From contig NGFI01000006.1 of NCBI GenBank assembly GCA_002215645.1, forward strand, positions 62,001 to 126,000: 64,000 nucleotides of DNA, in the 5' to 3' direction. The stretch's first letter is position 1; each line of letters opens with the position of its first letter. This document shows positions 11,142-15,433 of the stretch, in pieces. The translations under genes and the position numbers were made by a program. The notes beneath the pieces were generated by a model. It was given only the letters and a program-made list of their open reading frames with translations, searched no databases and had not been told where the DNA came from. This DNA comes from Gemmatimonadetes bacterium 2013_60CM_65_52 (GTDB lineage Bacteria; Gemmatimonadota; Gemmatimonadetes; Gemmatimonadales; Gemmatimonadaceae).

Positions 11142-13097
11142 CTACGATGCGGTGGCCGCGCGGCCGAGCAGCTCGACCGCGGCAGTTTCCTGCTCCCACG
11201 TGGCGAGCGCACGATCGAGGGACGCGCGCGTCTCGTCCAGTTCCATGCCAAGTCGGTGCGCGTCCGCCCGTCCATGCGCTGCCGTGTACAATGCCGGATC
11301 ATCCAGGAGGGACGTCAGCCGTTCCACTGCCGCCTCGAGATCCACGACGTCCTGCTCGGCGCGCGCCGCGCGCGTGCGCGCATCCCGCAGGAGCCGCTTC
11401 TGTTCGTCGCCACCGCGCTCTTCACGACGCGAGACCCGCCGCTTCTCGTCCACGCGCCGGCGCGCGACTTCCTCTGCTGCGCGCACGGCGGCAGCGTGCG
11501 CACGCTCCTCGCTTGCCACCTCCCATTCCCCGAACGTACCATCGAACTCGGTCACATGGCGCTCGTGCAGGACCCACACCTTGGTGGCAAGCGCGCGAAG
11601 CATGGCGCGGTCATGGCTGACCAGGATGACCGTCCCGTCGTACGCTTCGATCGCATCTTCCAACACCTCGATCGTTTCCACGTCCAGGTGATTTGTCGGC
11701 TCGTCGAGAACGAGCAGATTCGCGCGCGCCAGCATGAGCATCGCCAATGCAACGCGGGCGCGCTCGCCGCCCGAGAGCGTCGAAGCAATCCGTTGCACTT
11801 CGTCGCCGCTGAAGCCGAAGCGGCCAAGATGGCCCTGGATCAGACGACGTTCCCACTGCGGGCGAAGATCGAGAATGATGTCGAAGAGCGTGCGATTCAG
11901 CGGCACCTGTGCCAGCTGCTGATCGTAATACGCCACTCGAATCGAGTTGCCGACACGCAGCTCTCCGCGCACGACTTCTCGTTCGCCCACGAGCGCCTTG
12001 AGAAGTGTCGATTTGCCCGAGCCGTTGGGTCCGAGGATGCCAACCCGCTGTCCTCGCATGATCCGCCCCGTCAGATCTTCGATGAGCACTCGCTCTCCCA
12101 CCGCGAGGACCGCGCGATCGGCGACGACCACCTGATCTCCGCCTCGATCGGCGATGTCGAGCCGAAGCGCCATCGTGCCGTCCTCGCCTGCGACCGCGCC
12201 GAGTCTCGGAAGGCGCTCGAGCTTCTTGCGTCTTCCCTTGGCCTGCTTGCTGTTCTGGCCGGCAATGTTGCGCGCGATGTAGTCCTGCTCCGCAGATATG
12301 ACCTTCTGCTGCTTGTCGAATGCACGCTGTTGCGTGAGGCGGCGCTCTGCTCGTTGCGCAACGAACGATTCGTATCCGCCGCCGTACGGTGTCGCGGTGC
12401 CGTCCTCGAAATGCAGCACATGATCGGCAACGGCAGAGAGAAACGCGCGATCATGACTCACGAGAACGATGGTGCGATCGCTTTCCGCCAGATACTGCTC
12501 CAACCACCGCGTCGTATCGAGGTCCAGGTGATTGGTCGGCTCGTCGAGCAACAGGATGTCGGACGGTGCCACGAGCTGTCGTGCGAGTCCCACGCGGCCG
12601 CGTTCCCCTCCGCTGAGCTGCTCGAGTGGCTGCTGCCGCGCCACTGCGGGATCGAACCCAAGGCCATGCAGAACCGCGTCTACCCGTGGCGCAATCGTGT
12701 ATCCGCCTTCGTGCTCGAACCGCTCCAGGTCACGACCATAACGTTCCAGCGCCGCCGGATCGCTCGCTGTCGCGAGTGCATGTGCCTGTTCCGCGAGCGA
12801 CTGTTCGAGCGCGAGCAGCTCCGCAAACGGGCCGGCGGCCGCCTCCCACACCGTCGTCGCCACGCCAAAATCGCGATGCTGTCCCAGCAGCGAGAGCGTG
12901 ATTCCGCTGCCGCGTGACACGCTGCCGCGAGTGGGTACCAGCTCGCCGACCATCAGCTTGAACAGCGTGGTCTTGCCGGTCCCGTTGCGCCCCACGACGC
13001 CCCAACGATCACCAGCGCCGATCGTGAACGTGATGTCGCGAAACAGCGTGGTCGCGCCGAATTCTACGGCAACAGAAGAGAGCGAGAGTTGTGTCAC
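11142..13097 (-). CDS. ABC-F family ATPase (Uup/EttA-like)
   Basis: 651 residues from GTG 13097, where homology to ABC-F proteins begins (VTQLSLSSVAVEFG). Two nucleotide-binding domains without membrane segments: Walker A GRNGTGKTT and GPNGSGKST, signatures LSGGERGRVGLA and LSGGERARVALA, Walker B LLLDEPTNHLD and LVLDEPTNHLD. The linker is rich in basic residues. A C-terminal charged coiled coil (roughly residues 550-640) resembles the Uup DNA/RNA-binding tail. ABC-F proteins act on ribosomes; the exact subtype cannot be fixed by eye. The extension upstream to 13313 is ignored. Confidence 0.93.
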   Translation of the reverse strand: MTQLSLSSVAVEFGATTLFRDITFTIGAGDRWGVVGRNGTGKTTLFKLMVGELVPTRGSVSRGSGITLSLLGQHRDFGVATTVWEAAAGPFAELLALEQSLAEQAHALATASDPAALERYGRDLERFEHEGGYTIAPRVDAVLHGLGFDPAVARQQPLEQLSGGERGRVGLARQLVAPSDILLLDEPTNHLDLDTTRWLEQYLAESDRTIVLVSHDRAFLSAVADHVLHFEDGTATPYGGGYESFVAQRAERRLTQQRAFDKQQKVISAEQDYIARNIAGQNSKQAKGRRKKLERLPRLGAVAGEDGTMALRLDIADRGGDQVVVADRAVLAVGERVLIEDLTGRIMRGQRVGILGPNGSGKSTLLKALVGEREVVRGELRVGNSIRVAYYDQQLAQVPLNRTLFDIILDLRPQWERRLIQGHLGRFGFSGDEVQRIASTLSGGERARVALAMLMLARANLLVLDEPTNHLDVETIEVLEDAIEAYDGTVILVSHDRAMLRALATKVWVLHERHVTEFDGTFGEWEVASEERAHAAAVRAAEEVARRRVDEKRRVSRREERGGDEQKRLLRDARTRAARAEQDVVDLEAAVERLTSLLDDPALYTAAHGRADAHRLGMELDETRASLDRALATWEQETAAVELLGRAATAS

Positions 13098-13119
13098 GAA
13101 GCGACGCCAGAACAGTGAT

Positions 13120-13467
13120 TCACGCGTCGAGCCAGCTTTTCCACGTCCCCGCCGCGTCACCGATCGATAACGCCGTGCCCCACCGCACCAGAGGCATTTT
13201 GAGCAGCAGCGGTTCCGCTGTAAGAACTTCCAGCCAGCGGTCGTCACCATAACGGGCGGTGCGCAGGCCAAGCTCGCCGTAGCGACGTGAGTCCTCGTCG
13301 ACGAGTGCGCCAATACCCAGTTTCTGCGCGAATCGCAGCAACTCGCCGCGCGAAGCCGCCCGCTCCTGTAGATCGACGAAATGCGTCTTCATGCGGCGTT
13401 CAGCAAAGAACCGAAGCGCCTTCCGCGTGTCGGCGCTTTTCCGCGTGCCGAAGATCTGAACGTCCAT
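13120..13467 (-). CDS. ArsC/Spx-fold protein lacking the redox cysteines
   Basis: 115 residues from ATG 13467, preceded by GGAGA. The protein aligns end to end with the ArsC/Spx/YffB thioredoxin-like family: an N-terminal beta strand, then TRKALRFF, a FVDLQE strand, RRYGELGL, and the late LLLKMPLVRWG where the family has LLKRPIV. Where the family carries Cys-x-x-Cys-R-K-A this one reads S-A-D-T-R-K-A, and the Arg of the RP motif is Met. It is therefore probably not an arsenate reductase; function unknown. Divergent from the YheT-like gene with 23 nt between starts. Confidence 0.8.
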   Translation of the reverse strand: MDVQIFGTRKSADTRKALRFFAERRMKTHFVDLQERAASRGELLRFAQKLGIGALVDEDSRRYGELGLRTARYGDDRWLEVLTAEPLLLKMPLVRWGTALSIGDAAGTWKSWLDA

Positions 13468-13490
13468 TCTCTCCAGACTGCTATTATTCA

Positions 13491-14546
13491 GTGATCGCGG
13501 ATGTGCCGCGGTCCCGTTCCCATTCCGTTCGATTGCGCTGGCCAAGCGAACATACCTACACCCCAGCCTGGTGGGTACCGGGCGCGCACCTTCAGACGCT
13601 GTGGGGCAAGCTGGCGCGCCGGCCGCCCGTCGTGTCGACACGAAGCGAGCGCTGGCCGACGCCCGATCACGACGAGATCGAGATTCGACGACTTGACCGA
13701 GGTATACATACACCCGTAACGCCGCGATTGGTCATCCTCCACGGCCTCGAGGGGACCATCCGCTCGCACTACTTGCGCGGAACCCTTCGTCAGGCCGAGA
13801 TGCGCGGCTGGCCGGCGGATGTGTTGATCTTCCGCGGTTGCAATGGCGAAGTGAATCGCGTGCGGCGGATGTACCACTCCGGCGAGACGGGCGATCTGGA
13901 GCTCGTCGTGCGACGCCTGATCGAGAACGAGCCAACCCGACCGCTCGTGCTCGTCGGGTTCTCGCTCGGCGGCAACGTCCTCCTCAAGTGGCTGGGTGAA
14001 CGAGTGGATGTCATGCCTTCACAGGTCGTCGCGGCGGCCGCCGTCTCCGTACCGTTCGACCTCGAGCGCGGCGCCCGCCACATCGAAAGCGGCCTCTCCC
14101 GTCTCTACACCTGGCACTTTCTTCGGACGCTCAAGGCCAAAGCCCGTCGAAAGCTCGATCGTTTCCCCGGTCTCTTTGATGTGGCGGCGCTCGATCGGTC
14201 GCGCACGCTGTATGACTTTGACGACGCGGTGACTGCCCCCATTCACGGTTTCCGAGATGCGCACGACTACTACACCCAATCCAGCTCGCTGCAGTACCTG
14301 CGCCGCGTCCCCGTGCCGACGCTGCTGCTGAGCTCTTTCGACGACCCCTTCCTGCCGCCGGACGTGCTCGAGCGAGTTGCGTCGGAAGCCAGCGACAACC
14401 AGCATCTCGTCTGTGAGTTTCACGACCGAGGGGGACATGTCGGCTTTGTCGCCGGCAAATCGCCGGTGTCCGCGCGCTATTTCGCGGAGGAGCGAGTGCT
14501 GAGTTTTCTTGCTGCACAGGTGGTAGCTCGCAGCGCGGCCGCCTAG
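13491..14546 (+). CDS. YheT-family alpha/beta hydrolase
   Basis: About 351 residues; GTG 13491 is the working start and GTG 13503 is an alternative. Strong match to the YheT/EMB8 hydrolase family: AHLQTLWGKL near the N-terminus, HGLEGTIRSHYLRGTLRQA, RGCNGEVNR...YHSGETGDL, the nucleophile elbow VGFSLGGNVLLKWLGE (Ser in GxSxGG), a late acid residue in SSFDDPFLP, and the catalytic His in RGGHVGFV. Likely a cytoplasmic or membrane-associated esterase of unknown substrate. A possible -10 element (TATTAT, 13482-13487) sits just before the start. Confidence 0.9.
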   Translation: MIADVPRSRSHSVRLRWPSEHTYTPAWWVPGAHLQTLWGKLARRPPVVSTRSERWPTPDHDEIEIRRLDRGIHTPVTPRLVILHGLEGTIRSHYLRGTLRQAEMRGWPADVLIFRGCNGEVNRVRRMYHSGETGDLELVVRRLIENEPTRPLVLVGFSLGGNVLLKWLGERVDVMPSQVVAAAAVSVPFDLERGARHIESGLSRLYTWHFLRTLKAKARRKLDRFPGLFDVAALDRSRTLYDFDDAVTAPIHGFRDAHDYYTQSSSLQYLRRVPVPTLLLSSFDDPFLPPDVLERVASEASDNQHLVCEFHDRGGHVGFVAGKSPVSARYFAEERVLSFLAAQVVARSAAA

Positions 14547-14559
14547 CCCAGGCGTACTC

Positions 14560-15084
14560 ATGGCGTATCTGTTTCTCACCCTCTTCGTGGCCGGTGTTCT
14601 GCTCGGCGTCCGGCTGCTCTTCTTTGGCGCGGAGCGAAGGAAGCTGGTGGTGAGTCGCTTGCCACTCCGCCGCTCCGAGCCGGCGGCGGTAGCGCTTCTG
14701 ATCACACTTGGTGTCGCCGGATACTTGCTTGGTCGCACGTCTCACCTGTCGGCCGTCAACGTCCTCGGCATCGCCGCGTTGATCGCGGCGATAGTCTCTG
14801 CCGCGGCAACACGTTTGGCGATCGCCGCCGCCCGTATCGCGCCGGCGCACGATCCCAGTGACCGCCGATTCGCGCTTCAAGGACACATCGCCACCGTGTC
14901 GACCCCCATTCCGGCTCTGGGCGAGGGTGCCATTCTGATGACTGGCGACGTCAGCGCGTCCCGTGTTGCCGCACGTAGCATCGATGCGGAGGCGATCGAG
15001 GAAGGCGCCGAGGTCTGCATCGAGCGCGTTGAAAACGACGTTGCCTTCGTCGAACGGTGGACGCTGGTGGAGCGACGCCTCTAG
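14560..15084 (+). CDS. NfeD-like membrane protein with C-terminal OB-fold domain
   Basis: 174 residues. Three hydrophobic segments (about 3-22, 45-60 and 66-90) are followed by a soluble C-terminal domain from about residue 105, with FALQGHIATVSTPIPALGEGA and a beta-rich remainder ending VAFVERWTL. This pattern fits NfeD/YuaF-like OB domains, which scaffold stomatin-type proteins at membranes, but no stomatin gene is nearby. It starts 13 nt after the hydrolase gene and is probably co-transcribed with it. Confidence 0.6.
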   Translation: MAYLFLTLFVAGVLLGVRLLFFGAERRKLVVSRLPLRRSEPAAVALLITLGVAGYLLGRTSHLSAVNVLGIAALIAAIVSAAATRLAIAAARIAPAHDPSDRRFALQGHIATVSTPIPALGEGAILMTGDVSASRVAARSIDAEAIEEGAEVCIERVENDVAFVERWTLVERRL

Positions 15085-15160: not shown

Positions 15161-15433
15161 ATGGCCGACGCACTGGTGTTCACGCTCGTCTTCGCCGGAC
15201 TGTTCGTGCTCCGCGGCGTCGCTGCGACGATCTTCTTCTACTACATCCTGCCCGTCGGCGACCATTGCCCGAACTGTGACGCGGTCACGCTTCGCATTCA
15301 GTCTCGTGGCTGGAATTTCTTCTTTCCGCGAGTGCGGACGAGCTGGTGTCTCGAATGCGGATGGCACGGACTGCTGCGGCCCGGCCCTCTGACGCCCGCG
15401 CCCTCAGGCTCCGAGCTGACGAAGATGCAATAG
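15161..15433 (+). CDS. Small membrane-anchored protein with two CxxC motifs
   Basis: 90 residues with a good ribosome site (GAGAGGAGGGG before ATG 15161). One N-terminal membrane helix (about 5-30) is followed by CPNCD and, 30 residues later, CLECGW, a four-cysteine arrangement typical of a zinc ribbon. The tail is proline rich. I do not recognise a named family. It ends 3 nt before the facing 97-residue gene. Confidence 0.7.
   Translation: MADALVFTLVFAGLFVLRGVAATIFFYYILPVGDHCPNCDAVTLRIQSRGWNFFFPRVRTSWCLECGWHGLLRPGPLTPAPSGSELTKMQ

Follow-up and report, generated by a model that had tools for sequence, protein, structure and literature searches.

The gene analysed here lies on the minus strand at positions 13120..13467 of a 64,000-nucleotide stretch of a Gemmatimonadaceae contig (NGFI01000006.1; hereafter the window) and encodes a protein of 115 residues from an ATG at 13467. 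Matches to homologues mostly start at residue 1 or 2 of this protein, which supports the choice of start codon. Downstream, on the same strand and 22 nt away, is a gene for an ABC-F ATPase (11142..13097, minus strand), whose product scored 418.5 bits against the cut-off of 380 of a ribosomal-protection-like ABC-F model; the two genes may well be co-transcribed. On the other side, a divergent gene (13491..14546, plus strand) encodes a YheT-like alpha/beta hydrolase, which scored 261.1 bits with model PRK10985, just under the cut-off of 267. The original prediction described a promoter space of 23 nt shared with this hydrolase. Counted by hand, the gap between the two start codons (13468..13490) does measure 23 nt with GTG 13491 as the first codon of the hydrolase, and 35 nt with GTG 13503. 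A pattern search of positions 13050-13620 found no sigma-70-like promoter. Past the YheT-like gene, the small genes at 14560-15084 and 15161-15433 of the window gave no Pfam match at 0.001; the latter encodes a product that begins with a hydrophobic stretch and contains two C-x-x-C pairs.

The 115-residue protein contains no cysteine anywhere in its chain. It reads G-T-R-K-S11-A-D-T14-R-K-A and L-K-M91-P92-L-V-R95, and two segments are of particular concern here: S11-A17 (SADTRKA; 13417..13437, minus strand), in which S11 occupies the place of the active-site cysteine of relatives, and M91-P92-L-V-R95 (13183..13197, minus strand), in which P92 and R95 are invariant. A search with the PF03960 (ArsC) profile gave 29.6 bits, above the gathering cut-off of 24, and this was the sole PF03960 match in the 4.2-Mb source genome. 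A structure model built from an alignment of 64 sequences had a mean pLDDT of 95.8; its closest solved fold is YffB (1rw1; Z 17.6, rmsd 1.7, 113 of 115 residues aligned), followed by the Bacteroides ArsC relative 3gkx (Z 16.7) and by Spx (3gfk, Z 16.4; 1z3e, Z 16.3). In the model, helix 12-22 starts directly after S11, and P92, which we take to be at the cis-proline place of the family, precedes strand 93-96. The protein is thus confidently predicted to have an extended thioredoxin fold of the ArsC/YffB/Spx type over nearly its whole chain, and the ArsC/Spx fold proposed earlier from end to end is borne out by the profile search and the model alike.

The same comparisons set the protein apart from the characterized members of this fold. 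YffB-type proteins (1rw1, 3rdw) are of similar length but only 17-21% identical, and 1rw1 carries an active-site Cys and an Arg before the proline where the 115-residue protein has Ser and Met. Classical ArsC relies on Cys12 together with Arg60 and Arg94; when the R773-type enzyme (1s3c), of the same fold and Pfam family, is aligned with our protein, these residues correspond to S11, D57, and M91. A divergent arsenate reductase that employs another residue would account for the PF03960 match, but the score with the arsenate reductase model TIGR00014 was 36.4 bits against a cut-off of 106.05, and none of the scanned genes beside the gene for the 115-residue protein was an ars gene. We regard this as the least plausible of the readings considered, and highly improbable.

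Closer relatives were found elsewhere. Among plasmid records, the best-scoring relatives from outside the phylum are the uncharacterized, single-cysteine "arsenate reductase family proteins" of Lachnospira eligens and Selenomonas ruminantium plasmids (37.2% identity), which share with the 115-residue protein the pattern G-T-x-K-x-x-D-T-[RK]-K-A, the motifs R-F-F-x-E and P-x-x-R, and a Trp at 109, but have Cys11 and Thr91 in place of Ser11 and Met91. The Cys-x-x-Cys named as the family motif in the original prediction is that of Spx. The nearest relatives that do carry a Cys, whether from this phylum or from Lachnospira and Selenomonas, mostly have C-x-x-T, so a single cysteine is missing from the 115-residue protein; it was right that the redox residues are missing (the site reads SADT and the chain is free of Cys), but not that a pair had gone. 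Some ArsC-type proteins have Ser or Val at the place of the second Cys whereas the Spx-like ones have CxxC, according to a passage of PMC2757866, and this statement agrees with a single-cysteine ancestry of the subfamily. No paper on a single-cysteine ArsC-like subfamily was among the listed matches of a search of open-licence full-text literature.

Matches were found in 41 of 60 near-relative genomes and in 174 of 298 Gemmatimonadota genomes; 8 of the 10 genomes of the source genus had one in the near-relative survey, and the named relatives of the 115-residue protein are Gemmatimonadota, mostly Gemmatimonadaceae. One further copy, in a record labelled Candidatus Kuenenia stuttgartiensis (L104), groups with the Gemmatimonadaceae rows, and that record is probably mislabelled or a mixed assembly. 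The sequences read were the best-scoring loci of the two genome surveys (60 near relatives; 298 phylum genomes), the best 80 of 230 relatives, 20 chosen places from the phylum survey plus one more, 20 of the 21 genomes of family f6, a PF03960 survey, and five plasmid records, of which three contained a protein of the subfamily. Paralogues of the classical ArsC, YffB, Spx-like, and selenocysteine kinds were recognized by their motifs and removed, which took 205 profile matches to 187 subfamily loci and 152 distinct rows; counts of distinct sequences in this set are weighted towards near kin and should not be taken as frequencies in the population.

A residue other than Cys at position 11 is the common state in this set. 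A first set of 108 distinct sequences from 132 loci had Ser in 73, Asn in 18, Cys in 11, His in 4, and Asp in 2; in the wider set of 152 distinct rows, Ser was found in 82, Cys in 39, Asn in 22, Asp in 5, and His in 4, so that 113 of the 152 are without Cys11. The cysteine is unevenly distributed among the groups of the phylum, which we label f1 to f6: it is present in all 20 rows of f6, in 7 of 17 of f5, and in 2 of 38 of f1, and absent from those of f2 (12 rows), f3 (2 rows), and f4 (3 rows), while the remaining 10 Cys11 rows are 8 named records without a group code and two outgroup rows. The 115-residue protein is not, therefore, a single degraded copy, as Cys is found in 39 of the 152 distinct rows and yet in none of the 8 from the source genus. 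Outside the phylum, position 11 is Cys in the Lachnospira and Selenomonas proteins and Ser in a hypothetical protein of Treponema saccharophilum (WP_002703428.1; 38.5% identity), which is likewise Cys-less (S11, Q91) and is probably a separate case. In that species, the Cys-less gene directly follows, after 2 nt, an ArsC-family gene with C-x-x-C (L134:2639-3357), and the pair may represent an active and an inactive form.

Given the Cys and Thr of the outgroup and of two other groups, the absence of Cys11 is best read from these sequences as a probable loss. On the tree, the Cys11 state needs 8 changes; starred branches force only 2 of them, and some changes may be a regain or transfer in the few Cys-bearing f1 copies rather than a loss. 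None of the 152 rows has selenocysteine at position 11. Among the matches in near relatives a single one contains a stop (G035 C111, L032), and for that copy selenocysteine in place of Cys was rejected, because the stop is not at position 11 but close to the end of the protein, where the frame seems to have shifted. Other PF03960 members from the same class do contain an in-frame TGA (L181, L184, L186, L187, L189, L191, L194, and L200). In all of these but L181 the codon was read at the first active-site Cys (UTTC, USAS, UGTC, USTC), and on that ground they are probably ArsC-family selenoproteins, a kind of protein already known (PMC2398784).

The residues that replace the cysteine are restricted in kind. 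In the 113 Cys-less rows residue 11 is Ser, Asn, Asp, or His, always polar and never Ala or Gly, which would fit a retained helix N-cap. T14 is conserved at 90-92% across Cys-bearing and Cys-less groups. The S-x-x-T that we had been led to look for as a conserved site is accordingly not one, since only its Thr is largely constant. A second position changes with the first. Most of the strongly conserved residues are common to both groups. Besides position 11 itself, the residue that differs most between the 37 Cys-bearing and 112 Cys-less rows of the phylum is 91, and when three outgroup rows are included, Thr91 is present in all 39 Cys-bearing rows but in only 4 of 113 Cys-less ones (L013, L033, L089, and L156); the remainder of the latter have Met (50), Gln (33), Val (12), Ile (7), Leu (6), or Ala (1). 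The association of Thr91 with Cys11 (phi, 0.94) is the highest of all positions, the runner-up reaching 0.68.

When Thr91 was simulated on the tree, none of 500 runs reached the observed association, nor did any of 3,000 on an IQ-TREE tree or of 3,000 on a FastTree tree, the highest value being 0.759; the trees behind these simulations were built from about 112 columns and are weakly supported. The test is also a lenient one, because five other lineage-linked positions were likewise seldom matched in the same 500 runs (22 K in 8, 78 W in 3, 72 H in 2, 69 H and 64 R in 1 each), although none of the five comes near a phi of 0.94. Independent pairs drawn from all branches gave 6-8 changing in the same way, none in the other, and 1-3 with no difference. 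Most branches of the 152-row tree are weakly supported; with the starred ones only (23 of the 149 inner branches), there were 2 independent pairs, which are too few, with the traits agreeing in 1.9 of the 2 on average. The T. saccharophilum protein, from another phylum, has the same double change.

We read Cys11 and Thr91, from their covariation in these alignments, as a putative two-part redox centre that was lost together. In the thioredoxin-fold enzymes discussed in PMC5909903 the residue before the cis-proline lies near the first active-site Cys; the same paper reports that an enzyme of H. pylori in which the corresponding Thr was changed to Val or Leu was unaltered in activity, so the chemistry may not depend on Thr91. 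The original prediction had also pointed to KMPLV in place of an Arg-Pro motif. The protein does have M91-P92, but this is not peculiar to it, as Arg precedes the proline in 0 of the 152 subfamily rows; Arg95, three residues past residue 92, is invariant in Cys-bearing and Cys-less groups.

The Cys-less proteins are under purifying selection. The median dN/dS of 79 Cys-less pairs (80-97% identity), computed by the Nei-Gojobori method with our own script, was 0.089 (range, 0.029-0.237), from which it follows that the protein is kept for something; 21 Cys-bearing pairs gave a median of 0.190 (range, 0.082-0.341), in a set that differs in divergence (median dS, 0.46 against 0.93 for the Cys-less pairs). 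Pairs with a dS of at least 1.8 were dropped, pairs that share sequences are not independent of one another, and the coding sequences of 6 of the 152 rows were not recovered. Slow decay, in which the function is being lost and the disappearance of the Cys was an early step, would be in keeping with the lack of a match in 124 of the 298 phylum genomes, some of them incomplete, and with the existence of one copy with a stop (G035 C111). That stop, however, is in one of 42 matches listed among near relatives, dN/dS in the Cys-less proteins is not above that of the Cys-bearing ones (with the same difference in dS), and residues are kept across the phylum; we consider decay very unlikely.

The residues kept in both groups are R19, E23, R24, R25, H29, D32, E42, R45, G51, R62, P92, R95, and W109. 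All of the subfamily residues R-F-F-x-E-R, H29, P92-L-x-R95, and Trp109 are present in the 115-residue protein, which lacks the subfamily pair Cys11 and Thr91 and has S11 and M91 instead. Its pI is 9.76, the family median being 9.97; as the Cys-bearing rows are equally basic (median, 9.99; n = 37), the high pI is no mark of the Cys-less state. Together with the residues kept in both groups, the high pI suggests an acidic or nucleic-acid-rich partner.

That no cysteine chemistry is possible at the ArsC site, as was foreseen, follows from a chain with no Cys at all, but the protein could still be an enzyme if the Ser, Asn, Asp, or His at the start of the helix activated or held a low-molecular-weight thiol such as bacillithiol. 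In some glutathione transferases a Ser plays just this part, and Foldseek returned weak matches to glutathione transferases (E values of 0.03-0.08). The polar residue 11 in 113 of 113 Cys-less rows is what such an enzyme would be expected to have, and matches to BshC were found in 73 of 73 chosen genomes. On the other hand, there are four different replacements at residue 11 rather than one, residue 91 is Met, Gln, Val, Ile, or Leu in 108 of the 113, which would imply a changed pocket, and, among the 73, genomes with the Cys and those without it do not differ in the presence of BshC. We accordingly regard a thiol-holding enzyme as an unlikely explanation, if one to be kept in mind. A lack of bacillithiol was rejected as the cause of the Cys loss on the same 73 genomes, in which BshC is found in Cys and Cys-less alike. 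The BshC matches themselves differ: their scores in f1 genomes do not go beyond about 176 bits, and the matches there are often split or without the first 25-80 model positions, whereas those in f4 to f6 mostly score 220-315 bits (with one split match in f6, G323). The BshC of the source genome is at G000:C13:753750-754688, and the family of the source has a divergent BshC.

A non-enzymatic regulator like Spx was one of the roles suggested in the original prediction, the other being an adaptor. Such a regulator would bind the C-terminal domain of the RNA polymerase alpha subunit (alpha-CTD) and act on transcription with no need of a redox switch. The Spx fold (1z3e, 3gfk, 7f75) is matched over the whole chain, and G51, invariant in both groups, lies by eye in the region of Spx G52. 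The Cys pair, moreover, appears not to be needed for binding, as the interface of Spx with alpha-CTD is the same in the oxidized form and the reduced C10S form (PMC2801614). According to the same paper, however, Spx-dependent activation needs the CxxC, and Spx contacts Tyr263 of alpha-CTD, a residue not found in Gram-negatives. The 115-residue protein has neither the CxxC nor the Arg-Pro (R92) of Spx, its score with the NCBIfam Spx/MgsR model TIGR01617 was 37.8 bits against a cut-off of 75.05, and YffB ranks above Spx as its nearest fold. In the alpha subunit encoded by the source genome (L209), the sequence S-V-R-S-V-N puts a Val where B. subtilis has Tyr263, the mapping (query residue 12 to residue 263 of 6wvj_A) being taken from an equal-length match of 2-58 to 253-309. 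These observations lower the standing of an Spx-like role, which we now judge to be quite improbable; some other contact with RNA polymerase is still conceivable.

Conservation of the neighbourhood, another check that had been proposed, was partial. Among loci whose sequence extended 1 kb or more on the relevant side (143 downstream, 135 upstream), the ABC-F gene was adjacent downstream in 38 of 143 (f1, 16/37; f2, 4/12; f3, 1/2; f4, 0/2; f5, 0/17; f6, 0/19) and the YheT gene adjacent and divergent in 55 of 135 (f1, 28/36; f2, 0/11; f3, 0/2; f4, 0/3; f5, 0/15; f6, 0/17), with both adjacent in 23 of 129; the two neighbours are conserved in part of the phylum only, with neither in f5 or f6. The YheT gene was the neighbour in 4 of 32 Cys-bearing versus 51 of 103 Cys-less loci, and the ABC-F gene in 5 of 35 versus 33 of 108. 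In E. coli, the ABC-F gene yheS and yheT are also neighbours. A scan of 20 neighbouring ORFs in 19 loci, mechanically picked as long and near, gave a Pfam match at 1e-6 for 15 and none for 5: DUF520, Lnb_N, DUF72, and the YheT-like hydrolase twice each, and DUF3667, Beta-lactamase, FtsX/MacB, Peptidase M28, MOSC, beta-propeller, and Rhomboid once each. A conserved operon was therefore discarded as a clue to function, no partner in these 20 ORFs being common to all lineages.

The adjoining ABC-F gene remains the main lead to a partner, and points weakly to the ribosome or translation. The fuller proposal built on it, that the protein is a basic, Arg-rich, Cys-less pseudo-redoxin of the ArsC fold, arisen by several paired losses of Cys and Thr and acting as a translation adaptor made with the ABC-F protein, strikes us as unlikely in that specific form. 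More broadly, the 115-residue protein is somewhat more likely than not a preserved thiol-free orthologue of a single-cysteine subfamily of the ArsC/YffB fold, working by binding without thiol chemistry. Three observations make a non-enzymatic role, which the original prediction had anticipated, the best reading: many of the relatives read lack the Cys, the gene is under purifying selection, and the loss of Thr91 is linked to that of the Cys. The single-cysteine (C-x-x-T) proteins would be the ancestral orthologues, with Cys11 and a Thr before Pro92; the lineage of the 115-residue protein would then have lost the redox centre (Cys11 and Thr91) and kept the rest of the fold and the surface. It may now act as a binding protein, a pseudo-oxidoreductase or adaptor, in which case the Cys-less form would retain the surface with which redox-active relatives dock.

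Members of redox families that lack the Cys are often dismissed as decayed, or take their names from the active relatives. The Gemmatimonadota, in which one gene exists in forms with and without the thiol and a second residue tracks the cysteine, offer a natural experiment, one that separates the residues of the thiol chemistry from those needed for whatever the protein binds. A partner, if found, would hint at the role of the uncharacterized single-cysteine ArsC-like proteins of Bacillota and spirochaetes.
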